Below are positions 5,031 through 52,996 of a stretch of DNA of 64,000 nucleotides, one piece after another (positions within the stretch are counted from its first letter, which is position 1; every line of letters begins with the position of its first letter). The position numbers were made by a program, and so were the translations under genes. The notes under the pieces were generated by a model that had not been told where the DNA came from, searched no databases, and worked only from the letters and a program-made list of their open reading frames with translations. The DNA comes from a virus, in the IMG/VR virus record IMGVR_UViG_3300043409_001318, positions 1 through 64,000 of that record; one strand, 5' to 3'.

Positions 5031-5097
5031 AATAACAATACGGCAGTTGAAGAGATTTGTTCAACTGATCTTAAAACAAACAACAAGGGGTATTAAA

Positions 5098-28023: not shown

Positions 28024-28201
28024 TAGAGCAGATATAAGAGAAGAAATCCTTTATTTCTTGGAGAAGGCATGGGTTAAAAATCCACATTTAAGGATTATGC
28101 AACTTCTTGGTAATGGTTTTACAGAAGGAGATAATTACTACGTTGACGATCAAGCAGTATTAGATTATCTTGTAAAGGTTGCTAACGAAGTGGAGGATTA
28201 A
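28010..28201 (+). CDS. Small phage protein (DREEILYFLEKAW... type)
   Basis: This 63-aa protein has a helical first half, NPHLRIMQLLGNGF and a final acidic helix with a YVDD turn. Similar small proteins (K-N-P-x-L-R-x-x-Q-L) are common in phages and have no known function. The stop TAATG overlaps the next start. Confidence 0.6.
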   Translation: MNNLDRADIREEILYFLEKAWVKNPHLRIMQLLGNGFTEGDNYYVDDQAVLDYLVKVANEVED

Positions 28202-32751: not shown

Positions 32752-34320
32752 ATGAGTAAGCAATACTGCGATGGTCGCTCTTTAAGTGAAGCAATCCTAA
32801 AAGGCGCAAATATATTAGCAGATAACGTTTCTTCTACATTAGGACCAAGAGGAAGAACGGTTATTCTACATGAAAAAGGAAAAACACCAATCATTACGAA
32901 AGATGGTGTCACGGTAAGCAATTATGTTGAACTTTCAGATCCATTTGAGAATTTGGGAGCACAAGTAATTAAACAAGCTTCTCAACAAACTGCTACTCTT
33001 GCTGGTGATGGAACAACAACATCAGTCGTTCTTTCACGCGCAATTCTTCGTGAAGCACAGAAATATCTAATTGCTGGTGTTTCTCCTACCGAATTAAAAA
33101 GAGGAATAGATTTAGCCGTTGACGCTTTGGTAATTAGAATTGGAGAAATAGCACAACCAATTTCGTCCGAAGAAGAAATCGAACATATTGCTTCTATCTC
33201 TGCTAATAACGATAGAACAATTGGTAAATTAATTGCTACTGCGGTAGATAAGGTAGGTAAGGATGGTTCTATCACTATTGAAGAAGCACGGTCAGTCGAT
33301 ACTTCTCTTGATATTGTTGAAGGCTTTCGTTTCGATGCGGGATACCTTGCAGGAGCGTTCATCAACGACGAGAGACGAGGGGTAGTAAAATATGAAGACC
33401 CTTATATTCTTGTAACAGATCATAAATTTGACTCCGTTCAAGATATGTTGCCTGTTCTTGAATTAATCGCAAGAGAAGGAAAACCATTTGTAATTGTAGC
33501 AGATGAAATTGAAGGTCAAGCTCTTGCTGCTCTTATTATGAACGCTATGAGAGGCACAATGAAAGTTGCAGCCGTTAAAGCTCCTCGTTATGGTGAAGAG
33601 CGTAAAAACATTCTTAAAGACCTTGCTATTTCAGTAGGAGCAACTTTTGTTTCTCTTGAAAATAGTATGAAGATTGGCGATGTAAAACTCAAAGATTTTG
33701 GTCGTTCAAAGAAAATTGAAATTGCTAAAAACCTTACCACTATCGTAGGTGGAAAAGGTGATATGGAACAAGTTGACCAAAGAATTGAAACAATTAAAGC
33801 TGAACTTCAACAAACTGAATCAATTTACGAGTGTGAACGTCTACAAGAAAGAATTACTCGTCTTGCTTCTGGTATTGCGATTATTCGTGTAGGTGCTCCA
33901 ACTGAAATTGAAATGATTGAGAAGAAGCACCGTATTGAAGATGCCTTAGAAGCCGTCCGTAGTGCCCAACAGGAAGGTATAGTTGCTGGGGGTGGCGTAG
34001 CCCTCCTTAGAGCAGCAGAAGGGATTGTAGACCCAACAGGGAACGAAGAACAAGCACTTGGTTTCAAGATCATAATGAAGGCTATTGAAGAGCCTGTAAG
34101 ACAAATGGCCCTAAATTCTGGTGAGTCGCCAGACATTATTATTAGTATGATTAAAACAGAACATTCTAATTTTGGTTATGATTTCTTGGGTCGTTCTATG
34201 ATTAATATGGTTGAGAAGGGCATTATTGATCCAGCAAAGGTTACAAGATGTGCTCTTCAAAATGCAGCTTCAGCAGCAGGAACTCTAATCACAACTAACT
34301 ATGCTATTGTCCAAATTTGA
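32752..34320 (+). CDS. groEL: GroEL-like chaperonin
   Basis: A 522-aa group I chaperonin, ATP-driven folding chamber. Conserved parts are LGPRGRTVILH, ITKDGVTV, AGDGTTTSVVL (ATP site with catalytic Asp), SANNDRTIG, GGGVALLRA and a C-terminal region ending without the Gly-Met tail of bacterial GroEL. The apical domain (AGAFINDERR) is recognisable. It has its own strong promoter. A GroES-like gene lies at 15589. Phage-encoded GroEL is uncommon and suggests folding of large or many virion proteins. Confidence 0.95.
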   Translation: MSKQYCDGRSLSEAILKGANILADNVSSTLGPRGRTVILHEKGKTPIITKDGVTVSNYVELSDPFENLGAQVIKQASQQTATLAGDGTTTSVVLSRAILREAQKYLIAGVSPTELKRGIDLAVDALVIRIGEIAQPISSEEEIEHIASISANNDRTIGKLIATAVDKVGKDGSITIEEARSVDTSLDIVEGFRFDAGYLAGAFINDERRGVVKYEDPYILVTDHKFDSVQDMLPVLELIAREGKPFVIVADEIEGQALAALIMNAMRGTMKVAAVKAPRYGEERKNILKDLAISVGATFVSLENSMKIGDVKLKDFGRSKKIEIAKNLTTIVGGKGDMEQVDQRIETIKAELQQTESIYECERLQERITRLASGIAIIRVGAPTEIEMIEKKHRIEDALEAVRSAQQEGIVAGGGVALLRAAEGIVDPTGNEEQALGFKIIMKAIEEPVRQMALNSGESPDIIISMIKTEHSNFGYDFLGRSMINMVEKGIIDPAKVTRCALQNAASAAGTLITTNYAIVQI

Positions 34321-37545: not shown

Positions 37546-40500
37546 ATGTCAAACTTTAATAATCTTTGGAATAACTGGTATAGTACAAAAGTTTTAACTG
37601 AGATGAAGAAGAGAACAAGAGATAGAGTTGTAGCAATATCTAAAAAAATAAAAGAAGAAGCTGGATTAGAAGGACTTAATGATAGTTATACAAGAATGGC
37701 AGCTTTTCCAGAGATATTTGGTGATAAATTAAGAATAGTTGTTGAATCTCAAGATAGTGAACTTGTAATTATGTCTAAATATCTTGGCAGTCTTCAACAA
37801 TTAGTTGCCGCCAGTTTAAAAGATAAAAAAGAAAAGGGTTTTTTAAAACCACCTTACTTTGGAAGTTCTTTTATTACCGATCAAACAATTGCTAAAGAAA
37901 CTAAAAGAAGATTACAAGAAGATGGTGGTGGAACATACGAAATTGACGTTGTATATTACCAACCAACTTTAATAATTCAATATGTTAACATGCAAGAACA
38001 ACAAAAGAAAGAAATTTTTTCTCTTCTTAAAGCGTTTAACAAATTTAAAATGAAAGAAGCAGCAGATTATTGGGGTAAAATTCAATCTAAATATACAAAA
38101 GATAAAGATTTTATAAATAATTTAACAACACAATGGTTTGCAATTAATAAAAGCGATCAAGAACGAAAAATGAAATACGGAGGTGAAAGAAAAGCTATTG
38201 TTTATTCCCGTGCTCCTATTGACGTTTTAAGAATGTCTGACCATCCCATGATTTCTTCTTGTCACTCCCAAGGTGGAGGTTACTTTCAATGCGCTGTTCA
38301 AGAAGCGATTAGAGGAGGTGCTATTGCTTATTCAGTTAATCAAGAAGACATACAAAAAATTATTGATGAAGATAGATTACAAGACATAGAAATATTTGAA
38401 GATAATGAAAGAGGGGTAAAAGGTATTAATCCAGATGGTAGAATTAGAATTAGAAGAATGTTTGATACTGATACCAAACAAGAGTATGCCTTACCAGAGA
38501 TAAGAATATACGGTACTCCACCTGCTTCTTTCCAAAATAGTGTTTTAAGTTGGTCAGCAGAAAATCAAAAATCTAAATTTACAAATTTAGAAACTGGTGA
38601 ATTTCAATTACCAGAGATTAAAAATGCTATAAGAGTTGGTGGTTCTTATGAAGATAATTACGCACCAGATCTTTATAATAGATTAGCTAAGAAAGTTGCT
38701 AATTCTTTTGGAATTAAAGATGAAGATGTTCCAAATTCCAATGTTTATATTCAAAGTGTCACCGTTGATGAAGGCTTGGATTTAATGAGTAATTGCGAAA
38801 GAATTTCAAGAAATATACGAAACGAAATGGTAACTTTTGATATGACAAGACTAGCAGATTATAAAATTATATGTAAAAATAATGGTAAGACAGGTATCGC
38901 ATTTACAAGAGAAGGTCGTACAGAAGAATTTAATGATGAATTCAATGATGAATTTGTTGCGATAGAATTTAATTTCAAATATGAAATACATCAAAATAAT
39001 ATTAAAGGAAAACTTAAAACTGAATTAAACAACGATATAATAAAACAAATAATTAATAAAGGTGGTGAGATATCACCGGATTTTTATTTCTATAAATTAT
39101 ATAAATTACTAAATTTAGAAGGAACAGAATTCAAACCACGCAGAAACGGTCCACACTTGGTTTTTGAAGCAGATGCAAATTTAACCTTTAAAACCGTAGA
39201 AGAATTACGAACATTAAAAAATGAAATATTTAATTACGATAATGATGATAATAATTATCGTAATTTTGAAAGAACTGGTATAGCATTAGATTTTATAGAA
39301 ATGCAGCCATTTGACACAGCATACGCTAAACGTTTATTTAGAGATGTAAAAAATAGTGATTATATGTTCTATTATGAGAGTTCTTATGGTTCTTATAATG
39401 GTTCTACGGTATTATTGGCTCCACCAAGCGAATCTTCACGATCTGAAAGAACAAAAGCATATGATCGTGGTAATCTTAAACAAACAGATATGTTCCCTAC
39501 AATATATAATGGTTTTCTTGAAGGTATAGTGGAATATTTTTATGTTTATTCAATTCCAAAAGAAGCTTTAAGAGCTTCTTTAAAATATCCTACAAAAGAA
39601 AGACACCCAGATGGAGTAGTTTATCGCGCTTTGAAAATAGAGGCTAATCGAAAGAAAGAAGAAATAATGAGAGATATTCAAAAAGTTGTTTATGATATGC
39701 CAGACAAAATTATTAATAGTTTTGGTAGATTAGCACAATCAATTATAGAATTTGGCCCAACGGTAAGAAACCCAGAAGTTATAATCAACAATGAAACTGG
39801 TGAAGCTGATATTGAGAGAGATATTCAAATTGCCTTTACCCTTAAAATAAATCTTTCCACAAGCCTTAGTTCTGATCAACAAGAACAAGCTTTAAAACTT
39901 GTTGAATATTTTTACAATAACTTTTATAAATTTAGAGACAATTTAGAAGAACAATTAATTAATGATCTAAAACAAAAGGGTAGTCAGTTAGTAAAAAGTC
40001 TTATGTCCGATGCTTATCTCAAAGGTATAAAGGGTGAAAAACCTTTAGCAGACCCAATAGCAGAGATAAGACAATTAGACATACCAAACATAATGAAACA
40101 ATTAGAACAACCAGTTATCCAACAAGCAAGAGAAAGTTGGGAAAATTCAAATGGGATAACTACTGATTTAAAAGTTCCTTTTTTTGCTACGACTACAGAC
40201 GAACAAATGATAAGAGTTTATTATTCTTCTACCACTAACTACAAAAAAGTAAATCCATTAGAAGAAAACCTTTTTTATCTGGATTTTAAAATAGAGTATT
40301 TTAAATCAGGTACTAGCACTTATTTAATGATTAAATGTCCTATGATATTTCAACATACTTCTATAAGTGATATGAATGTTCAAGCTCTAACTATGGAAGA
40401 AATAATAGCTGATTTAGCATCGTCTATAGTGACTACTAATTATCGTGCTAAGGCTTCTAAAACAACTTACCAAGAACAAGAAAAGTATTTAGCTGGTAAA

Positions 40501-40704
40501 GAAAGCCAGATGGTATTTGATATAAGTAAGGAAACAAAAGAATTAATACAAACAAGACAAAAAGCAAAGGCAACAAAGGCAGATAAAGATGCGGCTATTG
40601 CTGCAACCACAGAAGACGAAAAACAAATGAAAATGTTTGAACGTAAGATGAATAAGAAACTAATTAAGGAAAGACTTATTAAGTGGTATAAAAGGAATTC
40701 ATAA
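37546..40704 (+). CDS. Large tagged protein, SCHS family copy 1
   Basis: First of three tandem paralogues. The N terminus LWNNWYSTKVLTEM carries the shared L-x-E tag. A conserved block near residues 217-345 has RAPIDVLRMSDHPM, then S-Cys239-His240-S with a glycine loop, FQCAVQEAIRGGAIAY and IRIRRMFD. The rest of the 1052 residues is unique, beta-rich and helical by turns. The C terminus KKLIKERLIKWYKRN recurs in copies 2 and 3. The block looks enzymatic (Cys-His-Ser, then a second Cys), and recalls the S-C-H region of PcfJ-like proteins, but no family is known to me. It is probably packaged in the virion. ACTAATTAATTGG lies before the SD. Confidence 0.65.
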   Translation: MSNFNNLWNNWYSTKVLTEMKKRTRDRVVAISKKIKEEAGLEGLNDSYTRMAAFPEIFGDKLRIVVESQDSELVIMSKYLGSLQQLVAASLKDKKEKGFLKPPYFGSSFITDQTIAKETKRRLQEDGGGTYEIDVVYYQPTLIIQYVNMQEQQKKEIFSLLKAFNKFKMKEAADYWGKIQSKYTKDKDFINNLTTQWFAINKSDQERKMKYGGERKAIVYSRAPIDVLRMSDHPMISSCHSQGGGYFQCAVQEAIRGGAIAYSVNQEDIQKIIDEDRLQDIEIFEDNERGVKGINPDGRIRIRRMFDTDTKQEYALPEIRIYGTPPASFQNSVLSWSAENQKSKFTNLETGEFQLPEIKNAIRVGGSYEDNYAPDLYNRLAKKVANSFGIKDEDVPNSNVYIQSVTVDEGLDLMSNCERISRNIRNEMVTFDMTRLADYKIICKNNGKTGIAFTREGRTEEFNDEFNDEFVAIEFNFKYEIHQNNIKGKLKTELNNDIIKQIINKGGEISPDFYFYKLYKLLNLEGTEFKPRRNGPHLVFEADANLTFKTVEELRTLKNEIFNYDNDDNNYRNFERTGIALDFIEMQPFDTAYAKRLFRDVKNSDYMFYYESSYGSYNGSTVLLAPPSESSRSERTKAYDRGNLKQTDMFPTIYNGFLEGIVEYFYVYSIPKEALRASLKYPTKERHPDGVVYRALKIEANRKKEEIMRDIQKVVYDMPDKIINSFGRLAQSIIEFGPTVRNPEVIINNETGEADIERDIQIAFTLKINLSTSLSSDQQEQALKLVEYFYNNFYKFRDNLEEQLINDLKQKGSQLVKSLMSDAYLKGIKGEKPLADPIAEIRQLDIPNIMKQLEQPVIQQARESWENSNGITTDLKVPFFATTTDEQMIRVYYSSTTNYKKVNPLEENLFYLDFKIEYFKSGTSTYLMIKCPMIFQHTSISDMNVQALTMEEIIADLASSIVTTNYRAKASKTTYQEQEKYLAGKESQMVFDISKETKELIQTRQKAKATKADKDAAIAATTEDEKQMKMFERKMNKKLIKERLIKWYKRNS

Positions 40705-43283
40705 TGAACGATAAAAAAGATTACCAAGTATTATGGGAAGGCTTTATTTCCAATAAAAAAATGTTATTGAATGAAATGGAAGGGCAGTATATGAATTTAA
40801 TTTCTAATGCTACTGCCTATGCCGAAAGCCACCCAGAATTACTACCATTCAAAGAAGTGTTTGGTAATGATTTAAGAAAAGTTATTCCATTCCAACAAAA
40901 GAATGTAGATAAAATTGCTTATCTTTTAAGTATATTTAAATTATTTTCAAGAACAACAGAAGGGAAGCAATATTTAGTACCACAAGTTCAACCAACCACC
41001 GTAAAAGTTAAAAGACAACGCCAAGGTGGTGGTGAAACTTACGAACAAGAACAAACCTTAAATCAACTTGTAGCGGTACATACCTTTATAGATCAAATGG
41101 GTAATTCAAAAACAAGAAATTTGACGATTGTTAATAGTCTAAAATTATTAAATGGTGCTTATAAAAAGTATTTAGAAAAGTCAAATCAAGATCCAAATTC
41201 TGTAAATGTCTCCCAATTTACTATATTAAAAGTATTAGATACTATACCAAGAATGATAGATTGGTGGCAGAAAAATCAATCAAAAATTAATCAAGATCCA
41301 GAAATAGCACAATTATCAAAAGATCTTTCTGACGATATGAGCCAAGAAGCTTGGAAAATGTTTGATACGATTGATGAAAATGAAGGTGCTGGCGAGATAA
41401 CTTCTAAATATTCTATTGTTCTTTCAAGAGTTCCTGTTGATGTGTTAAGAATGTCGGACCATGAAGGGATTAGTTCATGCCATTCTCAACCAAAGAACTA
41501 TGGATCAAATGGATACTTTTATTGTGCTATAGCAGAAGCACAAAATCAAGGTGCTATTGCTTATGTTGTTAATACAGAAGATTTGGAGAATATAGATTTA
41601 AAATCAAAGGAAATCTTTGTAGACCGTGAAAGATCAATAGGAGGAATTAGACCATTATCTCGTATTCGTCTTAGAACTTTAAAAGATACTTCCACAGATC
41701 AAACTATTGCTGTTCCAGAACAAAAGATATATGGTTTATTAATTAATGGTTTTCAAGAATTTATAGATAAATATACGGCTCAATCTCAAAAAGAAATGTT
41801 TGTAGAGCAAGACGAAGATGGAACAAAACAATTAAAACTTCCAATACAAAGAAATCTTACTTATGTTGGTGGTTCTTGGCAAGATAGTCAAATAGGTAGA
41901 AACTTTAAAAGAATGTTAGATTATATAACTGGTTTAGGTGAAGTTAAACCAACCGAAGAACAAAAATTATTGATTAATGATTTTGCTGCGATAAGTGTTA
42001 GATACTCTGGAAATGATACTCAATACGAAGATGATGATGAAGATTATGATGAAGACAATAATGATGAAGACGATCAAAGAGAAGCAGCAGAACAAGAATA
42101 TTACGATCAAATAAGACGAGGAGCTTTTAATACAGATAATTCTTTTATATTTAGAAGTTCTAATTTTAATTGGGTTTGGGGTGAGGGAGTTGAACTAAAA
42201 CTTGTAGCATATACAAAAATTCCAATAGAAACATCTTCATTAAGTAAGAAATATTTTGTTAACGGAGAAGTAGATACAGAAACATTATGTAGTGATATTT
42301 TATCCGCAATAGTAGATAAAGCAGATAAATCTGAAGTAAAAGTTCAACTTGATTACCCAGACGTTGCTATTGATGAAAGTGAAACATATATACAAGGCGA
42401 TAAAGATGATAAATATTTAACACTTAATTTATTTTATATTGAAGATGATATATCAGATATAGGAACATTTGGTTCTCACATATCGGACTTTATCCAATTT
42501 TATAATTCAATAGATAGTTTAGAAGATATATTAAAAGTCTATTTAATAGATAATGGTATTATTAGTGATGGAACATTTAGTATAAGTCAAAGAATAGCAA
42601 ACTTAAAAAATTCTTTTGATCGTGATAAACAAAGAAACTTTACTTATATTGGTGGTGATAAATTTGAGTTTCGTCCTATAACTAATACACAACTTGTTGA
42701 TAGTTCTAAAACTGGAGTATTGTTAACAAAAATTAATGTAGAAGATTATAGAGATATTCGTCATAATTTTGATAGTAGTTTTAATGAAGATATAGTAAGA
42801 TCTTTTGTTAGGGAACAAGAGAAAACACTATCAAGTGCCTATAATAGTTTACAACGAAATTTATTCGATAATATACCAGCTAATTATTTATCTGAATTTA
42901 CAGAACAGGAAAAATTTTCTTTCCTTGGTATTACTGGTGCTTTTAGTGTTGAACTTAAATTTGTTTATATGACCGAAGATATGAAAACAGCAATAGTAAT
43001 GAAAGATAGCGAAGAAGCTAAAATAGTTGGTATTTATGCGGTTCCTGTTATAACAATTGATAGTAAGAAATCACCAGAAGCATTATTGGGACTTATAAAT
43101 TATATGTATATGGTTGATGAAGACCCAGAACAATTTATAGATTTATTATACCTCTCATTTAAGATAGCAGCAAGTCAATATTCTGATCTTAATAATGCTA
43201 TTTCTAAATTGACTGAAAGAAGAAAAAGAGTTATTAAAGAAAGGCTGAAGAATTGGTATAGAAAGAATAAAGGAATTATTTAA
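40704..43283 (+). CDS. Large tagged protein, SCHS family copy 2
   Basis: Second paralogue, 859 aa, joined to copy 1 by a TAATG overlap. The N terminus VLWEGFISNKKMLLNEME holds the tag. The conserved block runs SRVPVDVLRMSDHEG, S-Cys259-His-S, FYCAIAEAQNQGAIAY, DRERSIGGI and RIRLRTLKD. A very acidic insert follows (near residue 445, D/E/N-rich). The C terminus is KRVIKERLKNWYRKN. Outside the block it differs strongly from copies 1 and 3, so the copies are old or evolve fast. Confidence 0.65.
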   Translation: MNDKKDYQVLWEGFISNKKMLLNEMEGQYMNLISNATAYAESHPELLPFKEVFGNDLRKVIPFQQKNVDKIAYLLSIFKLFSRTTEGKQYLVPQVQPTTVKVKRQRQGGGETYEQEQTLNQLVAVHTFIDQMGNSKTRNLTIVNSLKLLNGAYKKYLEKSNQDPNSVNVSQFTILKVLDTIPRMIDWWQKNQSKINQDPEIAQLSKDLSDDMSQEAWKMFDTIDENEGAGEITSKYSIVLSRVPVDVLRMSDHEGISSCHSQPKNYGSNGYFYCAIAEAQNQGAIAYVVNTEDLENIDLKSKEIFVDRERSIGGIRPLSRIRLRTLKDTSTDQTIAVPEQKIYGLLINGFQEFIDKYTAQSQKEMFVEQDEDGTKQLKLPIQRNLTYVGGSWQDSQIGRNFKRMLDYITGLGEVKPTEEQKLLINDFAAISVRYSGNDTQYEDDDEDYDEDNNDEDDQREAAEQEYYDQIRRGAFNTDNSFIFRSSNFNWVWGEGVELKLVAYTKIPIETSSLSKKYFVNGEVDTETLCSDILSAIVDKADKSEVKVQLDYPDVAIDESETYIQGDKDDKYLTLNLFYIEDDISDIGTFGSHISDFIQFYNSIDSLEDILKVYLIDNGIISDGTFSISQRIANLKNSFDRDKQRNFTYIGGDKFEFRPITNTQLVDSSKTGVLLTKINVEDYRDIRHNFDSSFNEDIVRSFVREQEKTLSSAYNSLQRNLFDNIPANYLSEFTEQEKFSFLGITGAFSVELKFVYMTEDMKTAIVMKDSEEAKIVGIYAVPVITIDSKKSPEALLGLINYMYMVDEDPEQFIDLLYLSFKIAASQYSDLNNAISKLTERRKRVIKERLKNWYRKNKGII

Positions 43284-46108
43284 TGTCGAAGAACACTCAT
43301 CATTATAACTGGAATTTGTGGTCAAGCAAGAACAAAAAGTTAACAGAAAGAAAGAAAGTTTTGTTAAAAGAGATGGACGAGCAGTTTATTGATATGATAG
43401 AACCAGCTATTATTGCTGCTGGTTCGGGAGCAAATAAAAACTTTGCTCCTTATTTTAATAACAAGAATAGACTTGTAATTAATTATGATGAATCAAAAGT
43501 TAATTATATTGCTACATTAGGCGCATTATGTAGTAATTACATTAAAGAAACAATAGCAAGACAATCCAAATCTTATCAAGCTACTGATGTTTATAAACAA
43601 GATAGACAACAAGTAGATGATATATTAGCAAAAGTAAGAGAGGATGATCCCCACTCTCATTACAGAGAAGAAAGGTTATTTGGTTATGTGAGATATCCAG
43701 TATTAGATTCTATTAACTTTAATATATCACAAAAAGAAACTATACAAACTGGTGTGGGCGTTGGTGGTGTTGGAACAATAGAGAAAAAAATAACTATATA
43801 TGAACCTGTTCTTGAATATAAAGTCACTAAACCAATATTAATTGGAAGTGAAAAGTATTCAGATCTAAATAGACAAAGCACTACTACTTTTGTTTCTACT
43901 TTTGGAGAAATTCTTAACAGGAATAAAGAAAAAGAATTGTTTAATGAATGGAATGGAGCAAAAGGTATAAGTTCACTTAGAGAAAGTATTTGTCAAGATG
44001 GTGAGGTTGTTAAACAAGCTAAAAAAGAATTTCTTAAAATAAATGAAAGTACAGAAACTTTAAAATTATCATTAAGTAAAAGTTTAGAAGCAAAAGCAAG
44101 TGAATATTCTATTGTTATTTCAAGAGCACCTATCGATGTTTTAAGAATGTCCGACTTTGTTGGTATGGAGTCATGCCATTCTACTGGTCGTGAATATTTT
44201 TATTGTGCTCTTGCTGAATCAAGAAATCAAGGGGCTGTTGCTTATCTTGTAAAGACAGAAGATCTTAAAAAAGTAAATCTAAATGATGAAGAAATATTTA
44301 ATGACCGTCAAAGAAGGGTAGGAGGTATAAATCCAATATCAAGAGTTAGACTTAGAAGAATTTATGATGAAGCATTGAAAAGCGATTATATGGTTGTAGA
44401 AGACGCAATTTATGGTTCCAGAAAAGCTTTCTTTGTTGATACAATAAAAAAATGGGCTTCAAATATTCAAAAAGATGTGTTTGCTTTGGGAAACACACCA
44501 GAAGATATTTATATTCCAGATCCAGATGATATAACTTTAAAGGGTGGAAGTTATACTGACTTGGACCAAAGTGGTTTAGCAAAAGAAATAAGAGATATTA
44601 TTTCTAATTCTATTAAATTAAAATTTGGAAATGAGGTATTAGAACAATATAAAACACAAATTGAATCAATTCGATATATTCAATATACAGGTCAAGAAAA
44701 TGAAAATGAATTAAGTACAGATTGTAGTGATGCTGAAAACCTTAAAGATAGTTGGGAAGACACGGTAAGTAGAGTAGGATATGTTAGTAGTGTTGCGTTT
44801 GATGTAATTTGTAATGGTAGTGGTTTAGATCGTATAGAAATGAATATTGAATTAGAAAGTATTGTAATTGGTAATGGTGAAGAATATAATAATAAGAAAC
44901 GTCGTTTTAATATGACGAAAGTAAAAGAATTATTACAAGGTGGTCATTACCATACTTCATATAGAACCGATGCGATGTTAACAGAAAAGTTGGAAAAATA
45001 CTTTAATAAAATTCCTCACTTTAAAGATCTGGTAGGATATGATGTTGAAGGAAATGTTGTTATAAGTGATGATAGAATAGAGTATACAATAAAATTTATA
45101 GGTAATTATCCAACCTCAAGTGAAGCAGAATATTTATCCGGTAGATTTTATAATGTATTAAAGAAATATGATCTTTATGAATTTGAAGAAGTTTGTTTAG
45201 AATTTGCTGAAGAAATGGGATTGCTTGAAGACCAACCATTTGATATAGCAAACGAATATTCCTTAGAAAAATTTGCTGAAGATCTTTTTAAATCAAGAAA
45301 TCATTTTAGATATAATGAAGGAGAAAGTGAAGAAGGTACAAAAGACGTATATTCTTTAATGGGAAATCCAGAAGGACAAGGACCATCTACAAACAATTCT
45401 CCAATAATAGGAATTATTCCATTTGAATATGAACTTAGAGAGAAGTTTATGGAACTATTCCAATATGGCTCTACTAACTTTCAAGTTTCTTTTAGAAATA
45501 AATTTAGTAATAAAATGTATAAATTAAATTCTTCTGTTGATGAACTTGCTTTACCAAGAGAATATAGTAGTAGACAATATCAAATTCCTATGGGTAAACA
45601 AGGAGACTACGGAAAAGCACTAAGAGCCGTAGCACCATCAGCAAGGATGCCGGATGATGAAAGCTTAAGCATTGTTTTAACTGCTGGAGAAGAAAATACA
45701 TTCCAACAAGCACGAAATACAAAACAAATTGAAGTTAAATTATTGTTAGACATACACATAAATGAAGAAATGCAGTCCGAAAACGAAATTATGAGTACCA
45801 TGAACTTTATGGATATATATGGTGGCGAGAAGTATGATGAACTTATAGGCTTAGCCACAGAAGCATTTAAAGAAGCTTGGAAACAATTTGGATTTGAGAT
45901 GGATAGACTTATTTCTAAATTAAGTGAACCAAAACAAAAGAAACCAGATGATTTTTCTTCATTAGAAGCTGGTGTTCAAACAGGTAATCTTCCGCTTTAT
46001 ACTATGAAGTCTGTTGAACAACCAGAAGATAAGAACGAAGCAAAGAAGAATAAGAAACTACTTATTAATGAAAGATTTAAGCGTTTGCTAAGGAACATGA
46101 AAAAATGA
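43283..46108 (+). CDS. Large tagged protein, SCHS family copy 3
   Basis: Third paralogue, 941 aa, again in a TAATG overlap. The N terminus KKLTERKKVLLKEMDEQ is a tag variant. The block is SRAPIDVLRMSDFVG, S-Cys298-His-S, FYCALAESRNQGAVAY, DRQRRVGGI and RVRLRRIYD. The C terminus KKLLINERFKRLLRNM matches the end of the other copies. No enzyme family is recognised. The overlap at its end couples it to the phosphatase gene. Confidence 0.65.
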   Translation: MSKNTHHYNWNLWSSKNKKLTERKKVLLKEMDEQFIDMIEPAIIAAGSGANKNFAPYFNNKNRLVINYDESKVNYIATLGALCSNYIKETIARQSKSYQATDVYKQDRQQVDDILAKVREDDPHSHYREERLFGYVRYPVLDSINFNISQKETIQTGVGVGGVGTIEKKITIYEPVLEYKVTKPILIGSEKYSDLNRQSTTTFVSTFGEILNRNKEKELFNEWNGAKGISSLRESICQDGEVVKQAKKEFLKINESTETLKLSLSKSLEAKASEYSIVISRAPIDVLRMSDFVGMESCHSTGREYFYCALAESRNQGAVAYLVKTEDLKKVNLNDEEIFNDRQRRVGGINPISRVRLRRIYDEALKSDYMVVEDAIYGSRKAFFVDTIKKWASNIQKDVFALGNTPEDIYIPDPDDITLKGGSYTDLDQSGLAKEIRDIISNSIKLKFGNEVLEQYKTQIESIRYIQYTGQENENELSTDCSDAENLKDSWEDTVSRVGYVSSVAFDVICNGSGLDRIEMNIELESIVIGNGEEYNNKKRRFNMTKVKELLQGGHYHTSYRTDAMLTEKLEKYFNKIPHFKDLVGYDVEGNVVISDDRIEYTIKFIGNYPTSSEAEYLSGRFYNVLKKYDLYEFEEVCLEFAEEMGLLEDQPFDIANEYSLEKFAEDLFKSRNHFRYNEGESEEGTKDVYSLMGNPEGQGPSTNNSPIIGIIPFEYELREKFMELFQYGSTNFQVSFRNKFSNKMYKLNSSVDELALPREYSSRQYQIPMGKQGDYGKALRAVAPSARMPDDESLSIVLTAGEENTFQQARNTKQIEVKLLLDIHINEEMQSENEIMSTMNFMDIYGGEKYDELIGLATEAFKEAWKQFGFEMDRLISKLSEPKQKKPDDFSSLEAGVQTGNLPLYTMKSVEQPEDKNEAKKNKKLLINERFKRLLRNMKK

Positions 46109-46950
46109 TAATGGAAAGCATATTAAATAATTGGAAAGGCTTTCTCAAAGAAGGCTTTACAGAAGAAGGAACCCCAGACCTTAAATACTATGCTTTCGAT
46201 TGGGATGATAATATAGCCTTTATGCCTACCAAAATTATTCTTCTTGATACAGAGGGTAATGAAGTAGGGATGGCTACCGATCATTTTGCGGAGTATAGAA
46301 CAGAGATAGGTAAGAAAGAGTTTGAATATGAGGGGCACACAATAAAAGACTTTGCTCCATTCCCATTTAGAAATTTTAGAGTTGAAGGTGATACTCAATT
46401 CTTACAAGACGTTATGACTGCTAAATTAGGACCATCATTTCCAGACTTTAAAGAATGTGTTGAAGGTGCTTCTATATTTGCTATAATTACAGCAAGAGGT
46501 CATAATCCAGAAACTCTTAAAGAAGCTTGTAAAAAGTATATTCTTTCTGGTTATGGTGGAATTAATACAGAACAAGTTATATCAAATATTAAAAAATATA
46601 ATGAATTGTATAAATCTTCTGGCTCAACAGATAATTCTAAATTAGTAGATGATTATTTACAAATTTGTAAATTTCATCCTGTAACGTTTGGAGAAGGAAG
46701 CGCAGCAAACCCAGAGCAATTAAAAGTAGTTGCTTTAAATAACTTTATTCAATATGTTAATACAGAAGTAAAGAAAGTTAAAAAACACGCTCAAAAAGGT
46801 TCTAAAATTAAAATAGGTTTCTCCGACGATGATTTCAAGAATATTGAAGCGATGATATCTCACTTTGGGTCAAGAGACGAAAAAGGTAAATTTAAAGCTG
46901 GACGACCACAATCATTAAAGATAAAGTATACAGGCAAACCCCGTGGATAA
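46105..46950 (+). CDS. HAD-like phosphatase with N-terminal tag
   Basis: The tag ESILNNWKGFLKEG precedes a haloacid dehalogenase-type core: YAFDWDDN (motif I, nucleophile Asp), IITARG (motif II), a Lys-rich helix, and KIGFSDDD (motif IV). HAD enzymes hydrolyse phosphate esters; the substrate may be a DNA 3' end, nucleotide or protein. At 281 aa it has a large cap insert between motifs I and II. Similar proteins occur in T4-like marine phages. The tag suggests it is carried in the virion with the three large proteins before it. Confidence 0.75.
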   Translation: MIMESILNNWKGFLKEGFTEEGTPDLKYYAFDWDDNIAFMPTKIILLDTEGNEVGMATDHFAEYRTEIGKKEFEYEGHTIKDFAPFPFRNFRVEGDTQFLQDVMTAKLGPSFPDFKECVEGASIFAIITARGHNPETLKEACKKYILSGYGGINTEQVISNIKKYNELYKSSGSTDNSKLVDDYLQICKFHPVTFGEGSAANPEQLKVVALNNFIQYVNTEVKKVKKHAQKGSKIKIGFSDDDFKNIEAMISHFGSRDEKGKFKAGRPQSLKIKYTGKPRG

Positions 46951-47221: not shown

Positions 47222-47551
47222 TTGTCTAAACATAAGAAAAGAGGTATACAGGTAGGTGACCCTGTAAAACTAAAAATAAGCAGATCATCAAGACCACCAA
47301 GAAGAGTGGAAACCCCAGAAGAATTAGGGATAGGAACCGTTGTTGAAAAACTAACAGGACTTTTTCTATATCCTCACGAAAAAAATATTATATTTGAATA
47401 TGATAGCGAATTAGATCCTAATTATATTAGTTATAAAAGTTCCAAAGAAAAAGAAGTAGAACAAACTTCAATATGTAAAGTTTATTGGTTTGGAATAGAT
47501 AAAGACAAATGGGAATATGAAAAAGATTTAGAAGTCTTGACGGATAACTGA
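47222..47551 (+). CDS. Small SH3-like protein (TTG start)
   Basis: A 109-aa protein starting at TTG 47222 after TGGGGGT. It has IQVGDPVKLK and a central GIGTVVEKLTG with a Y-W-F end, which fits the small SH3/KOW-like family. It opens the accessory region. The preceding 75 bases hold a direct repeat of AACTTTGTCT and nothing else clear. Confidence 0.6.
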   Translation: MSKHKKRGIQVGDPVKLKISRSSRPPRRVETPEELGIGTVVEKLTGLFLYPHEKNIIFEYDSELDPNYISYKSSKEKEVEQTSICKVYWFGIDKDKWEYEKDLEVLTDN

Positions 47552-47570
47552 AAGGGGTTAAAGTGTGGCT

Positions 47571-47744
47571 ATGGAAAAGACTACAAGAAGCACTCAAAAG
47601 GGCTCTGCTCGTCGGGAACACTTTAAGAGGGGCAATACCCCATCTATGTGGAGAGGTTCAGCCAAGACCTTTACAGATAGGCGCAAGCAGGATAATAGAA
47701 ACAAGTGTCGTCGCAGAGGCCAAGAAAGAAATGAAGATATTTAG
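47571..47744 (+). CDS. Very basic 57-aa protein
   Basis: The frame from ATG 47571 (or GTG 47565, closer to the SD AAAGGGG) to TAG 47742 encodes a small protein with 20 Lys/Arg residues (for example TFTDRRKQDNRNKCRRRG). A longer frame covering the same bases (47563-47979) is only genuine from 47731 on. The basic charge suggests binding to nucleic acid or to an acidic partner. Not recognised. Confidence 0.55.
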   Translation: MEKTTRSTQKGSARREHFKRGNTPSMWRGSAKTFTDRRKQDNRNKCRRRGQERNEDI

Positions 47745-47979
47745 AACAGGTGATCTTGTAAGAACAATAGGTCATTGGGATGGTTGGGTTACCCTTGGAA
47801 TTGCTTATAGTTATGAAGATTGGTTAGAAGCTTCAAAAGAACAAGACAGCGAACACAATAGGCGTTATGTGTATATACAAACCATTTCGGGCAAGCAAGT
47901 AGAAAAACACCCAGAGTCCGGTTATGAATTAGGTGGGTTTTACCCAGATAATCTTGAAAGAATTTCCACAACGGAGTAA
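47731..47979 (+). CDS. Small SH3-like protein
   Basis: ATG 47731 gives an 82-aa protein, MKIFRTGDLVRTIGHWDGW, with a Y-V-Y-I-Q strand and a C-terminal G-F-Y-P-D-N-L-E-R-I-S. This is the common layout of the family (G-D-L-V, central beta, L-x-x-I/V-S end). It overlaps the basic protein by 14 bases. Confidence 0.65.
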   Translation: MKIFRTGDLVRTIGHWDGWVTLGIAYSYEDWLEASKEQDSEHNRRYVYIQTISGKQVEKHPESGYELGGFYPDNLERISTTE

Positions 47980-47981
47980 AA

Positions 47982-48107
47982 ATGGAAAAGAAGATGCGCG
48001 GATCTTATGTAGATGGTTCTTATGTTCCAGCACAAGAGGAGCAGGTAGTTGTTAAGGTTATTAGTCTTAAAAATCCAAAGACGCTTGACAATAAAGATAA
48101 GAAGTAA
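47982..48107 (+). CDS. 41-aa hypothetical protein
   Basis: Starts two bases after the previous stop, ATG 47982, stop TAA 48105-48107. The sequence begins MEKKMRGSYVDGSYVP and ends Lys/Asp-rich. It keeps the operon spacing and has a GGAG SD, so it is probably made; no function is visible. Confidence 0.45.
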   Translation: MEKKMRGSYVDGSYVPAQEEQVVVKVISLKNPKTLDNKDKK

Positions 48108-48119
48108 TAAGAGGGATTG

Positions 48120-48575
48120 ATGGAAAGAGAAGAATGGAAAAGTAATTTCACAGAAGAAATGAGAGAATATTTTTATCGTGCTCTCTTTTTCCATAAGAAG
48201 GACCATAGAAATAAGAAGAATTCACTTAACAGAATTGTATATAAATATATAATTCCTAAACATGAATTAGAAAACATAGAATATTATAGTATAATCCCAA
48301 CTGAAGGCGAATATAAAAGAGTAATAACAAATCGTAATTTTGTTAAATACTGCGAAAGAAGAAACAAAAGATTTAATGTTGGCGATTTGGTTTGGTATAT
48401 GTTACACTATGGTCCAAGTAAAGAACGTGTCGCTATCGTTACAAATATACGAGATTATTCAAGTGGTTGGATATACACCATTAAATATATTGCTAATGGT
48501 GATGAAGTATCAGTATCCTCCGATGGAGTTATAGGTGTTGAAGCCAGAAATCTTGATAAAGAAAATGACTATTAG
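48120..48575 (+). CDS. SH3-like protein with helical N-terminal extension
   Basis: The 151-aa protein has a charged helical N-terminal half and a C-terminal SH3-like part, FNVGDLVWYMLHYGPSKE, IVTNIRDYSSGWIY, then a final V-E-A-R-N-L. ATG 48120 is used after AAGAGGGAT. It is the largest family member and the last gene before the structured RNA region. Confidence 0.6.
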   Translation: MEREEWKSNFTEEMREYFYRALFFHKKDHRNKKNSLNRIVYKYIIPKHELENIEYYSIIPTEGEYKRVITNRNFVKYCERRNKRFNVGDLVWYMLHYGPSKERVAIVTNIRDYSSGWIYTIKYIANGDEVSVSSDGVIGVEARNLDKENDY

Positions 48576-48583
48576 AAACTCCT

Positions 48584-48614
48584 TGACTTTGTTAATAAAA
48601 GTGTTATATATAAT
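48584..48614 (+). promoter_or_regulatory. Strong sigma70-like promoter before the RNA element
   Basis: TTGACT (48584-48589) with TATATA at 48607 (17-base spacer) or TATAAT at 48609 (19-base). It would start RNA near 48620, just before the structured region and the tdk gene. Confidence 0.7.
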
Positions 48615-48652
48615 TGTTGGCTATTTGATAGGTTTGGCTTATAGAGGTTTTG

Positions 48653-48880
48653 TGGGTTAGGGATTAGATAGACTTTAAATATATATTTGTTTAGGTTGTA
48701 GGCTACTATCAACCTTGTTACCTCCAAACACTAGGTTTAAATCTAAGGGATTACCTATTAATTCCTGTTTGACGATTTAAACTGAAGTTGGGTTTGTGTG
48801 GAAGGGCAGTAACGTAAATTAGAATGTAGCTAGTCCGAGAGTAACAAAGATACTCTTACTTTTATCTAATCCCTAATCCA
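48653..48880 (+). ncRNA. Candidate structured RNA of about 230 nt (leader or small RNA)
   Basis: No open frame fills the 325 bases between 48576 and 48900. An 18-bp helix with one G-T pair joins 48653-48670 (TGGGTTAGGGATTAGATA) with 48863-48880 (TATCTAATCCCTAATCCA). Inside it are at least three local helices: AGGTTG 48693-48698 with CAACCT 48710-48715; GTTTAAATC 48735-48743 with GATTTAAAC 48774-48782; AGAGTA 48838-48843 with TACTCT 48851-48856. A strong promoter precedes it, and the thymidine kinase ATG lies 20 bases after it. It does not look like tmRNA, RNase P RNA or a known riboswitch to me. It may be a riboswitch-like leader, a stable small RNA, or both. Confidence 0.6.
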
Positions 48881-48900
48881 TTTTACTACATGAGGTTTAA

Positions 48901-49425
48901 ATGCTGGAAGTTATTTGTGGTGGAATGTTTGCCGGTAAATCCGAACTTCTTATCCAAAGACTAAATCGAGCTGGATATGCGAAGAAGAATATTATTGCTT
49001 TTAAGCCAGCAATAGATAATCGATATTCAATAACCGAAATTGCTTCTCATTCGGGACATACCTATAAATCAGTAGCAGTTAAATCGGCTACTGATATTAC
49101 CGATTACATTACAAATGATATTGATGTAATTGGAATTGATGAAGCACAATTCTTTGATGATTATATTATTGAACTTGTTGAGATATTATCCAGCAAAGTT
49201 GATATTTATGTAGCAGGATTAGATTTAGATAGTGCTGGTAAGCCGTTTGGTAGTATGCCTTACTTGCTTGCTATCGCTGATAAGGTTACTAAGGTATCTG
49301 CCGTCTGTATGAAGTGTGGTGCTGATGCTACACGTTCTCAAAGACTTGTTGATAGTAAAGAACAGGTTATGGTAGGAGCAAATGGAACCTATGAAGCAAG
49401 ATGCCGAAAGTGTTGGACCCCCTAA
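48901..49425 (+). CDS. tdk: Thymidine kinase (type II)
   Basis: Phosphorylates thymidine to dTMP. The P-loop GGMFAGKSE is at residues 7-15, DEAQFF gives the Mg/Walker B motif, GLDLDSAGKPFG the lasso region, and two Cys pairs (CMKCG and CRKC) the structural zinc. The 174-aa length is slightly short of the 190-200 aa usual for this family, mostly at the C terminus. It complements the ThyX route for dTTP. It follows the candidate RNA element. Confidence 0.93.
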   Translation: MLEVICGGMFAGKSELLIQRLNRAGYAKKNIIAFKPAIDNRYSITEIASHSGHTYKSVAVKSATDITDYITNDIDVIGIDEAQFFDDYIIELVEILSSKVDIYVAGLDLDSAGKPFGSMPYLLAIADKVTKVSAVCMKCGADATRSQRLVDSKEQVMVGANGTYEARCRKCWTP

Positions 49426-49639
49426 ATATTCTCTTGGTCAAATAGTTGTAGCAGATCTTTCACTTGATAAGGTTATTGGTTATGTTATTGAAGTCCAAGA
49501 AGATAACTTTGGAAACTTTAATGGATGGTATAAAATATATGATCTTTATGCTGGAACATTTCCTCCACAATTTGAAGCAAAAGAGGATTGGATAGAAACC
49601 TATGAAGAATTTTCAGATCGGAGACATTCTAAAATATAA
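49382..49639 (+). CDS. Small SH3-like protein
   Basis: An 85-aa protein, start ATG 49382 with TAGGAG upstream inside tdk. YSLGQIVVADL, GYVIEVQEDN and W-Y-K-I-Y-D give the family pattern. It overlaps the genes on both sides by about 40 bases each. Confidence 0.6.
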   Translation: MEPMKQDAESVGPPKYSLGQIVVADLSLDKVIGYVIEVQEDNFGNFNGWYKIYDLYAGTFPPQFEAKEDWIETYEEFSDRRHSKI

Positions 49640-49817
49640 TAAGGGAGAGTATATTATTAATTACTTTCTTGTTGTTAATAGAACAGAAATCAAATCTAAT
49701 CTTCATCATGCTGGATATCTTGTCGAGTATAAGATAAAGAACATGGAAACAGATGGAATTAATATTATATTTAGTGATGATAAAGTTATAAGCAGATTTG
49801 TGAGGCAAAATGAATAA
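49602..49817 (+). CDS. Small SH3-like protein
   Basis: The 71-aa protein starts KNFQIGDILKYNKGEY and ends with SRFVRQNE. The FQIGDI opening is nearly the same as in the members at 55459, 62044 and 62393. Confidence 0.65.
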   Translation: MKNFQIGDILKYNKGEYIINYFLVVNRTEIKSNLHHAGYLVEYKIKNMETDGINIIFSDDKVISRFVRQNE

Positions 49818-50013
49818 TCAAATTAAACTTGGTGATATCGTTCATGTTGCGATGAACCCGGATATTATGGCTTACGTCACAGATATTCGTAGTCAAAAAG
49901 ATACACAAGAAGCATTTAAAAATCTATACTATGTTGAGTTTTTTAGTGGTCCCCTTACAGAAGGAAAGCATGTAACTTATTATTATGCTCACGAAATTAG
50001 AAAGGTTACTTAA
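49810..50013 (+). CDS. Small SH3-like protein
   Basis: The 67-aa protein has IKLGDIVHVAMNPDIMAYV, then YYVEFFSGP and HEIRKVT. It fits the family well, including the K-V-T/S end. It overlaps its neighbours by 8 and 1 bases. Confidence 0.65.
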   Translation: MNNQIKLGDIVHVAMNPDIMAYVTDIRSQKDTQEAFKNLYYVEFFSGPLTEGKHVTYYYAHEIRKVT

Positions 50014-50303
50014 TGCGCTGGAGATATGGAATAATTAAAGATACAAAAAAGCATAAATCAAAAGAATACACAGAATATTTTATTGGTGAAGTATATTATA
50101 CTGATGATCCAAATAAAGCAACAATGTGTTCCGGTGAAGGATATTTCCCCAGCATTGAAGAAGAAGCAATACCTCAAACAGAAGAACAAATTATTGAAGG
50201 ATTTAAGAAAGAAATCCAAAAGATTTTAAATGATATTGAAGGCAACAAAATAATTGATGCTGATGGTCCATTTGATAGATTGAAGAAGAAAGAAAGACCT
50301 TGA
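50013..50303 (+). CDS. Hypothetical protein
   Basis: A 96-aa protein with a beta-rich first half (WRYGIIKDTKKH, YFIGEVYYT) and a helical, acidic second half. The TGA stop overlaps the -35 box of the next promoter. Not recognised. Confidence 0.55.
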   Translation: MRWRYGIIKDTKKHKSKEYTEYFIGEVYYTDDPNKATMCSGEGYFPSIEEEAIPQTEEQIIEGFKKEIQKILNDIEGNKIIDADGPFDRLKKKERP

Positions 50304-51436: not shown

Positions 51437-51455
51437 GAGAGGTTCAAGTCCTCTC
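51437..51455 (+). repeat. Orphan tRNA T-arm-like hairpin, copy 1
   Basis: GAGAGG, loop TTCAAGT, CCTCTC: a canonical T-arm without the rest of a tRNA. The surrounding bases GCAGAGAGGTTCAAG recur at 51910. This copy is also the 3' end of the HNH gene on the other strand. Confidence 0.6.
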
Positions 51456-51800
51456 AACTGAATAATGCCTGTGCCTATGACAGTTAGAACAGAGAAGAAC
51501 ACACTTATCAAGTTCTGCTATCATAGTTTCAAGCTTAACAATTCTCATTTTGCTCCAATCAATATCTTTTGAAGCAGGATCTAAATGATGAAAATCGTAA
51601 ACATATGGAGGATAAACTTGGTTACAATCCAAACATTTTCCTCCTTTGTAATTAATAGCCCATTCGCGTCTTTGTTTCCACTTATCGTTTGAAACTTTGT
51701 CTTTACAAACTTTACAGTGACTATAAACACCTTTTTTTCTATCTTTTTGTTTATAGAATTCGTTAATATCTTTTTCTTGATTACATTTAGTGCATAGCAT
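51444..51800 (-). CDS. HNH endonuclease, the only - strand gene
   Basis: A 118-aa protein from ATG at 51800 (reading leftwards) with GGAGG upstream; a longer frame to 51890 adds an unlikely hydrophobic start. It has two N-terminal Cys pairs (CTKC and CKVC), CLDCNQVY, then FHHLDP and CSNCHRHRH, the H-N-H nuclease site with structural zinc. Such genes are mobile and cut an allele lacking them. It lies at the left edge of the tRNA array between two copies of a short repeat. An ACTATTTATT motif (51816-51826 on this strand) lies 16 bases before its start. Confidence 0.85.
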   Translation of the reverse strand: MLCTKCNQEKDINEFYKQKDRKKGVYSHCKVCKDKVSNDKWKQRREWAINYKGGKCLDCNQVYPPYVYDFHHLDPASKDIDWSKMRIVKLETMIAELDKCVLLCSNCHRHRHYSVERT

Positions 51801-51815
51801 TTTATTGCCTCCACT

Positions 51816-51826
51816 AATAAATAGTA
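51816..51826 (-). promoter_or_regulatory. TACTATTTATT motif on - strand
   Basis: Read on the - strand, TACTATTTATT lies 16 bases upstream of the HNH start, as the same motif does for + strand genes. This turn with the gene supports a directional promoter role. Confidence 0.45.
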
Positions 51827-51869
51827 GGATAGAAAGAAAACTTCTCTCCAAGAAAAGAAAAAAAGACAC

Positions 51870-51898
51870 TTGACAAGCGAAACGAGACACAATAGATT
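51870..51898 (+). promoter_or_regulatory. Promoter of the tRNA array (copy 2)
   Basis: TTGACA (51870-51875), 17-base spacer, TAGATT (51893-51898). The T-arm-like hairpin of copy 2 follows 15 bases later, the same spacing as in copy 1. Confidence 0.6.
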
Positions 51899-51937: not shown

Positions 51938-52014
51938 GTGGGGATAGCTCAAATGGATAGAGCAAAAGTTTTCTACACTTTAGGTTGAAGGTTCAAGTCC
52001 TTCTCTCCACGCCA
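51938..52014 (+). tRNA. tRNA-Arg (TCT)
   Basis: Cloverleaf complete: acceptor GTGGGGA/TCTCCAC with one G-T pair, D arm GCTC/GAGC, anticodon stem AAAGT/ACTTT with loop TTTCTAC, T loop TTCAAGT, discriminator G and encoded CCA. It reads AGA/AGG. Confidence 0.93.
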
Positions 52015-52081
52015 CTTTAACAATATGCTATACCGATTATGATGCTTTTAAAAGCTCGTTTAAACCAACTGTAAACATTAT

Positions 52082-52158
52082 CCACCTTTAGCTCAGTTGG
52101 TCAGAGCAATAAGCTTATATCTTATCGGTCCCCCGTTCAAATCGGGGAAGGTGGACCA
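52082..52158 (+). tRNA. tRNA-Ile (TAT)
   Basis: Acceptor CCACCTT/AAGGTGG, anticodon stem ATAAG/CTTAT with loop CTTATAT, T stem CCCCG/CGGGG, encoded CCA. Anticodon TAT reads the AUA codon, which is rare in many bacteria but frequent in this AT-rich genome. Confidence 0.92.
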
Positions 52159-52174
52159 ATCAGCTTGAAACTAC

Positions 52175-52202
52175 TTGACACCTTTGCGAAGCGTGTTAAA
52201 GT
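52175..52202 (+). promoter_or_regulatory. Promoter inside the tRNA array
   Basis: TTGACA (52175-52180), 16-base spacer, TAAAGT (52197-52202), 20 bases before tRNA-Leu. It may drive the last nine tRNAs. Confidence 0.6.
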
Positions 52203-52221
52203 ATAGGCAAGCAAACAGTAC

Positions 52222-52307
52222 GGCTCCTTGGTGGAATGGTATACACAGCAGACTTAAAATCTGTCGCCCTCACGGGCTTGCGAGTTCAAGTCTCGCAGGA
52301 GCCACCA
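52222..52307 (+). tRNA. tRNA-Leu (TAA)
   Basis: Class II tRNA with acceptor GGCTCCT/AGGAGCC, anticodon loop CTTAAAA, long variable arm GCCCTCACGGGC, T loop TTCAAGT, encoded CCA. Confidence 0.93.
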
Positions 52308-52313
52308 CTTTTT

Positions 52314-52400
52314 GGGAAGATGGTGTAATGGTAGCCACGACAGACTCAAAATCTGTTGCTTAACGTAAGCGTAAGGGTTCAAGTCCCTTTCTTCCCACCA
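52314..52400 (+). tRNA. tRNA-Leu (CAA)
   Basis: Class II tRNA, acceptor GGGAAGA/TCTTCCC, anticodon loop CTCAAAA, variable arm GCTTAACGTAAGC, encoded CCA. Together with the TAA tRNA it covers UUA and UUG. Confidence 0.92.
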
Positions 52401-52406
52401 CATTAC

Positions 52407-52492
52407 GGAGAATTAGTCTAATTGGTAAGGCAACGGATTTGAAATCCGTCGAGGTAAAACTCTTACACGTTCAAGTCGTGTATTCTCCGCCA
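52407..52492 (+). tRNA. tRNA-Ser (TGA)
   Basis: Class II tRNA, acceptor GGAGAAT/ATTCTCC, anticodon loop TTTGAAA, variable arm GAGGTAAAACTC, T loop TTCAAGT, encoded CCA. Confidence 0.92.
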
Positions 52493-52497
52493 TTTTA

Positions 52498-52573
52498 GGG
52501 ACGGTAGCTCAGTTGGTAGAGCAAGGGCCTTTTAAGCCCAAGGTCGTGGGATCGTGCCCCACCCGTCCCACCA
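52498..52573 (+). tRNA. tRNA-Lys (TTT), unusual T loop
   Basis: Acceptor GGGACGG/CCGTCCC, D arm GCTC/GAGC, anticodon loop CTTTTAA, T stem GTGGG/CCCAC and encoded CCA. The T loop is ATCGTGC instead of TTCRANY, so positions 54-55 and 58 are changed, and the first anticodon-stem pair is A-A. Confidence 0.85.
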
Positions 52574-52579
52574 CTTTTT

Positions 52580-52655
52580 GCCTGTATAGCTCAGTTGGTA
52601 GAGCACTATCTTTGTAAGCTAGTGGTCACCCGTTCAAATCGGGTTACAGGCTCCA
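52580..52655 (+). tRNA. tRNA-Thr (TGT)
   Basis: Acceptor GCCTGTA/TACAGGC, anticodon loop TTTGTAA, T stem ACCCG/CGGGT with TTCAAAT, discriminator T, encoded CCA. One mismatch lies in the anticodon stem. Confidence 0.92.
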
Positions 52656-52660
52656 CATAC

Positions 52661-52735
52661 GGTCCCATCGTCTAGTGGTTAAGACTCCAGCTTTTCACGC
52701 TGGCAATCGGAGTTCAATTCTCCGTGGGACTACCA
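52661..52735 (+). tRNA. tRNA-Glu (TTC)
   Basis: Acceptor GGTCCCA/TGGGACT with a G-T first pair, anticodon stem CCAGC/GCTGG with loop TTTTCAC, T loop TTCAATT, encoded CCA. Confidence 0.92.
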
Positions 52736-52739
52736 TTTT

Positions 52740-52815
52740 GGCACTATAGCTCAGTTGGTAGAGCAAGCGTTTCATACACGTTCGGTCACTTGTTCAAATC
52801 AAGTTAGTGCCACCA
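52740..52815 (+). tRNA. tRNA-Met (CAT), elongator type
   Basis: Acceptor GGCACTA/TAGTGCC fully paired, so not an initiator by the usual C-A first pair rule. Anticodon loop TTCATAC, T loop TTCAAAT, encoded CCA. It could alternatively be a lysidine-modified Ile tRNA; the window already has tRNA-Ile(TAT). Confidence 0.88.
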
Positions 52816-52828
52816 TAAAGTTAATTAG

Positions 52829-52913
52829 GGGAGCATCGCATAGCGGCAATTGCAAGGGACTGTAAATCCTTTCTCATACGAGTTCGTTGGTTCGAGTCCA
52901 ACTGTTCCCACCA
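52829..52913 (+). tRNA. tRNA-Tyr (GTA)
   Basis: Class II tRNA, acceptor GGGAGCA/TGTTCCC, anticodon loop CTGTAAA, variable arm with TCTCATACGAGT, T loop TTCGAGT, encoded CCA. Confidence 0.92.
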
Positions 52914-52919
52914 TTTTAT

Positions 52920-52996
52920 TCCCGATTAGCTCAGTTGGTTAGAGCAACGGACTGTTAATCCGTGGGTCGTGTGTTCAAATCACACATCGGGAGCCA
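52920..52996 (+). tRNA. tRNA-Asn (GTT)
   Basis: Acceptor TCCCGAT/ATCGGGA, anticodon stem ACGGA/TCCGT with loop CTGTTAA, T stem GTGTG/CACAC with TTCAAAT, discriminator G, encoded CCA. Confidence 0.93.

Follow-up and report, generated by a model that had tools for sequence, protein, structure and literature searches.

The thymidine kinase gene (tdk) of a phage known only from environmental sequence is preceded by a block of DNA that poses two questions: does it encode a structured RNA, and what would such an RNA do in front of tdk? The window analysed here comprises the first 64,000 nucleotides of the phage's 184-kb IMG/VR record (IMGVR_UViG_3300043409_001318; G000). A sequence-only reading of this window had proposed a 325-base gap free of ORFs, a near-consensus promoter, and a new structured RNA closed by a long helix shortly before tdk. 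A tdk protein search yields ten IMG/VR loci; related loci carry L numbers below.

Locus and upstream ORF

The gap is smaller than proposed. Its first 85 bases lie inside an ORF (48565–48660), and the rest, 240 bases at 48661–48900, is non-coding as claimed. The ATG of this ORF overlaps the stop codon of the preceding gene, an arrangement repeated in L002, and its own stop codon falls within the closing helix of the RNA (P1; Table 1). Hydrophobic ORFs of 26–35 codons occupy a conserved position upstream of tdk in L002–L005; their homology is argued from position, length, and hydrophobicity, with weak sequence similarity. The product is probably a single-pass membrane micro-protein.

The strong promoter is not supported. 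Its TTGACT (48583) and TATAAT (48609–48614) strings are separated by a poor, 20-base spacer, lie inside the small ORF, and are absent from the list returned by a promoter scan. No equivalent is seen at the corresponding position in L002. The position of tdk was read correctly, with the ATG (48901) 20 bases past the end of the closing helix as first described (48880).

Table 1. Features of the tdk leader region (window coordinates)
Feature	Position	Strand	Remarks
31-codon ORF, hydrophobic peptide MTIRNSLTLLIKVLYIIVGYLIGLAYRGFVG	48565..48660	+	short hydrophobic ORFs in the same place in L002, L003, L004, L005
P1 closing helix, 5' strand	48652..48672	+	21 bp with 48861-48881 in the window phage
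P2 hairpin GGTTG/CAACC, 11-nt loop TAGGCTACTAT	48694..48714	+	stem invariant in three phages
Pseudoknot 5' strand TAG(G)CTAC, in P2 loop	48699..48706	+	pairs with 48826-48832
P3 long arm	48717..48813	+	GTTAC 48717-48721/GTAAC 48809-48813; from fold and three-sequence comparison
Junction J3/4, conserved, GTAAATTAGAAT-GTAGCTA-GTCC	48814..48836	+	contains pseudoknot 3' strand 48826-48832
P4 hairpin GAGAGTA/TACTCTT	48837..48857	+	5/7 pairs changed on both sides
P1 closing helix, 3' strand, then short U-rich stretch	48861..48881	+	
Shine-Dalgarno of tdk, GAGG, probable	48892..48895	+	read from sequence; 10 bases after P1
tdk, thymidine kinase	48901..49425	+	Pfam PF00265 (TK family), E 3.6e-51

Fold of the RNA

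The 18-bp helix originally described (48653–48670 with 48863–48880) is confirmed, at 94% complementarity with one G-T pair, and extends to 21 bp with three G-U pairs. A closing stem of equal score arises in 0 of 1000 flank shuffles. The RNA it delimits (48652–48881, plus strand) has a folding energy of -81.4 kcal/mol against -56.3 +/- 4.2 kcal/mol for dinucleotide shuffles (z -5.9), and its energy per base (-0.281 kcal/mol) is the lowest among window stretches that span 120 bases or more and hold neither a tRNA nor an ORF on the plus strand. The copy in L002 folds with a z of -4.4, and that in L003 moderately (z -1.7).

Across these three phages, the element is about 210–230 bases long. The equivalents of P1 differ in sequence, with 14 bp in L002 and, in L003, 9 bp followed by a 2x2 loop and 3 bp. 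A junction of about 20–25 nt leads from P1 to P2, a 5-bp stem with a loop of 11–12 nt. The P2 loop forms a pseudoknot with the P3/P4 junction through seven pairs around a one-base bulge; all seven are kept in the three sequences, two of them by compensatory change (G-C/U-A and A-U/G-C). Beyond its outer stem, P3 continues through CT/GG with a 2-nt bulge, an internal loop, and ACAC/GTGT (48728–48731/48796–48799); its L003 counterparts are GCACC/GGTGC and ATAG/CTAT. The distal arm (48732–48795) is variable, and its outer part is unalignable between the window phage and L003. Although the arms diverge, AAATTARAATGYAGNTAGYCC in the unpaired junction is common to all three phages. The 7-bp stem of P4 differs in each phage under a similar apical loop, and the hairpin almost abuts the 3' strand of P1. 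The plus strand is preferred as the RNA strand because the five G-U pairs of the element would turn into A-C mismatches on the opposite strand.

Covariation and recovery of a held-out homologue

Covariation was assessed among the tdk-upstream homologues. MAFFT put a one-base insertion in a loop of L003 in the wrong place, so the core was aligned by hand (alignment A4: three sequences, 110 columns), with a trimmed P3 outer arm and without single loop insertions. In A4, 12 of 30 pairs are changed on both sides; the pseudoknot contributes two of them (columns 10-81 and 14-78), and 98.9% of cells are paired. Values this high occur in none of 500 shuffles, and 0–1 such pairs remain once the partners are slid by 1–3 columns. 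On the hand-trimmed alignment, RNAalifold drops P2 for an extended pseudoknot helix; both P2 and the pseudoknot are retained here since they share no nucleotides except G3G4 with C86C87.

A covariance test points the same way. A model built from the window and L002 sequences (R2) recovers the native, unedited L003 element, which was held out, at 50 bits (E 1.7e-7) and in the same alignment, with the caution that the structure supplied to R2 was drawn after L003 had been seen. The sequence-only model (R3) gives L003 19 bits, so roughly 30 bits come from structure. The weakest point is P1 in L003, since its 9-bp stem alone is equalled in 86 of 1000 flank shuffles; the L002 stem is equalled in none of 1000. 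Between the window phage and L003, tdk is 77% identical in DNA and 59% identical at third codon positions, and the junction core is nearly identical. The segment at 48652–48881 is thus a structured RNA whose shape is conserved while much of its sequence has changed.

Distribution

The element stands directly upstream of tdk, in the same orientation, in the two closest IMG/VR contigs, L002 and L003 (tdk identity 91% and 76%), and the distance from the end of P1 to the tdk ATG is 17–19 nt in all three phages. Upstream of tdk in L004–L007 (68–70% identical), no such RNA is found. A model search finds a single copy in the 184-kb record, with none at thyX or the nrd genes of the same phage.

Wider searches add no member. 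Model R1 finds none in about 160 other viral records, picked by tdk, terminase, or a 281-aa neighbour, or in further loci; these records are mostly fragments, which makes absence weak evidence. The element is not found in INPHARED, and BLASTN with the three RNAs against phages and plasmids returns chance matches only. Pattern scans with three core motifs return only the L002 and L003 contigs and chance matches in IMG/VR, and no member among GTDB contigs. In the space searched, matches to the model score up to about 21 bits by chance. A match in L303 (14.2 bits) was rejected because it overlies coding sequence, as was one in L307 (21.4 bits) that is antisense to coding sequence. Another in L302 (17.2 bits; 1501–1585 of G102, contig 3300008952_000004) scores at chance level and is not counted. 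The L302 match lies just upstream of a phage-borne tmRNA (1613–1920), and its loop GGTTC complements GAACC in the pseudoknot register.

Comparison with known RNA families

That no known family could be recognised at this site is upheld by a search of the 4227 families of Rfam 15, none of which matches the element at its gathering score; over the whole window, only tRNAs pass that threshold. At E<=10, the search returns only Ref55 (20 of 43 bits) and ceN30 (15.5 of 65 bits), both at E>=1 and neither credible. A group I intron was considered and rejected: no Rfam model matches, and the P7-like GGCTA/TAGTC pairing of the window is lost in L002.

The likeness to SAM riboswitches is one of topology. 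In the SAM-I and SAM-IV riboswitches, P1 closes a domain in which the P2 loop is pseudoknotted to J3/4, and P3 and P4 follow, with P4 beside P1. The present element shares only this topology, having a P1–P4 junction and a P2-loop/J3-4 pseudoknot with two compensatory pairs. It differs from SAM-I and SAM-IV in its short P2 hairpin, in a J3/4 of about 23 nt, and in its position before tdk. The SAM-clan models of Rfam, which describe the SAM-binding core, do not match at gathering score or at E<=10.

The leader of T4 gene 32 contains a pseudoknot. In T4, gene 32 protein autogenously represses translation of the mRNA that encodes it, and the likeness is that of a leader RNA targeted to control translation of a phage gene for DNA metabolism (PMC535899). 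Whereas the gene 32 operator is small and binds gp32, the element here comprises several helices over about 230 nt in front of tdk; the window phage has its gp32-like gene elsewhere (5047–5889).

Other phage RNAs offer further parallels. The manA and wcaG RNAs occur in T4-like cyanophages; manA is often found in potential 5' UTRs, including those of nucleotide-synthesis genes, and may contain a pseudoknot (PMC2864571). The manA model (RF01745) has no match at E<=10 in the window phage or its two relatives (G001 and G002), and wcaG matches in none of the Rfam searches. ROOL and GOLLD, found in phages and often close to tRNA islands, are ornate RNAs whose function is unknown (PMC12286853). GOLLD RNAs are often longer than 800 nt, and both families have Rfam models, neither of which matches here. 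With homologues, covariation, and no Rfam match behind it, the proposal of a new structured RNA stands. The element is judged to be a new RNA family of a general kind already known, that of phage structured leaders or non-coding RNAs.

Gene content of the phage

The phage invests heavily in nucleotide supply, as it encodes ThyX (16131–16844), adenylosuccinate synthetase (26157–27194), IMP dehydrogenase (28201–29235), and ribonucleotide reductase. Clp protease (30709–31404) and GroEL (32752–34320) widen this to a broad set of nucleotide and protein-quality genes. Positions 37546–46108 are taken up by three ORFs in a row, all very large (1052, 859, and 941 aa); the 1052-aa ORF has no match in PHROGs, and the 941-aa ORF none in Pfam. 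The 941-aa protein matches several adjacent ORFs in G001 and G002, which suggests tandem paralogues. A 281-aa protein (46105–46950) looks HAD-phosphatase-like by eye from its FDWDDN and FAIITARGH motifs; it has no Pfam match above cut-off, yet IMG/VR phage contigs contain at least 578 of its relatives. Small proteins of about 60–110 aa that contain VGDIV-like stretches and look KOW/SH3-like by eye form arrays at 47222–50300 and in L303, and such arrays recur around tdk in several related phages. A cluster of 11 tRNA genes (51938–52996) is preceded by an ORF on the minus strand that is HNH-endonuclease-like by eye (51444–51890).

Possible roles of the RNA

The favoured reading, at a probability of about 0.45, is that the domain acts in cis as a leader of tdk. 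It would be a self-contained domain of the plus-strand transcript, between the ORF for the small hydrophobic peptide and tdk. By its look, with conserved unpaired junction bases tied by a pseudoknot, the domain appears to be of a binding type; the junction may bind a small ligand or a protein, and the folded or bound state could alter ribosome loading at the Shine-Dalgarno about 10 bases downstream of P1. The element lies before tdk in every known case, and precedents for such a role are manA, with its common location in 5' UTRs (PMC2864571), and the autogenous repression by T4 gene 32 protein (PMC535899). Several observations weigh against a leader. No intrinsic terminator is found, and pairing of the tdk Shine-Dalgarno and start region with the RNA has a duplex energy no better than shuffles in three of three phages. 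Masking by the P3 arm, where 48775–48782 complements 48895–48902 by eye, likewise does not rise above shuffles and was set aside. With neither a terminator nor Shine-Dalgarno masking above shuffles, no expression platform is found. The 21-bp P1 of the window phage is very stable, unlike a switching helix, and the tdk genes of L004 and L005 (about 70% identical) lack such an RNA. As all three loci are syntenic, the linkage to tdk counts as one observation, not three.

The missing platform and the closed, very stable domain with its long P1 speak for an RNA of about 230–240 nt, cut from the transcript or transcribed separately, that partners a protein or RNA during infection and is merely adjacent to tdk. 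This trans-acting role is a possible, more tentative reading than the cis-acting leader, which is preferred to it. Like a gene, the RNA fills its gap, from a stop codon up to the following Shine-Dalgarno, and a U-rich stretch follows P1 directly in all three phages, although this stretch is short in the window phage and L002. Ornate phage RNAs such as ROOL and GOLLD are precedents, and the tRNA genes of this phage lie 3 kb downstream. Set against this, no good promoter or terminator was found for the RNA itself, which sits directly before tdk at all three loci. The cis-acting leader has a special case in which the ligand is named: the RNA would be a new aptamer class sensing thymidine, dTMP, or dTTP in feedback on tdk. 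Its place before tdk and its loop-junction pseudoknot with a conserved unpaired core, typical of aptamers, suit such a riboswitch, and feedback on salvage would make sense in a phage that also makes dTMP de novo through ThyX; yet the lack of a platform and the absence of the RNA from thyX and the nrd genes make this improbable, and no thymidine riboswitch is reported in the open literature searched. Similarly improbable is a processing or stability element, in which the fold would shield the 5' end of a tdk transcript or determine where it lies. The stable closing helix, flanked by two genes in the same orientation, is consistent with this role, but the conserved junction and pseudoknot would not be needed for it, and the variable length of P1 (21, 14, and 9+3 bp) does not describe a uniform RNase III site. 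Least probable by far is chance folding or a feature of the DNA itself, for instance a small mobile element with inverted repeats at its ends. The long inverted repeat and its absence from the corresponding site in L004 and L005 could be read this way, but the would-be terminal repeats of P1 differ between phages while pairing is kept, the covariation largely refutes this reading, and the interior holds compensatory changes and G-U pairs in an element present once per genome.

Significance

The tdk-upstream element is a covariation-supported RNA family absent from Rfam 15; its core has four helices and a pseudoknot, and the phages that carry it are known from environmental sequence alone. Action in trans would make it a novel phage RNA. 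Action on tdk would make it a new point at which RNA controls phage nucleotide supply, and, should the thymidine-nucleotide riboswitch prove true, it would set the synthesis of thymidine kinase during infection.
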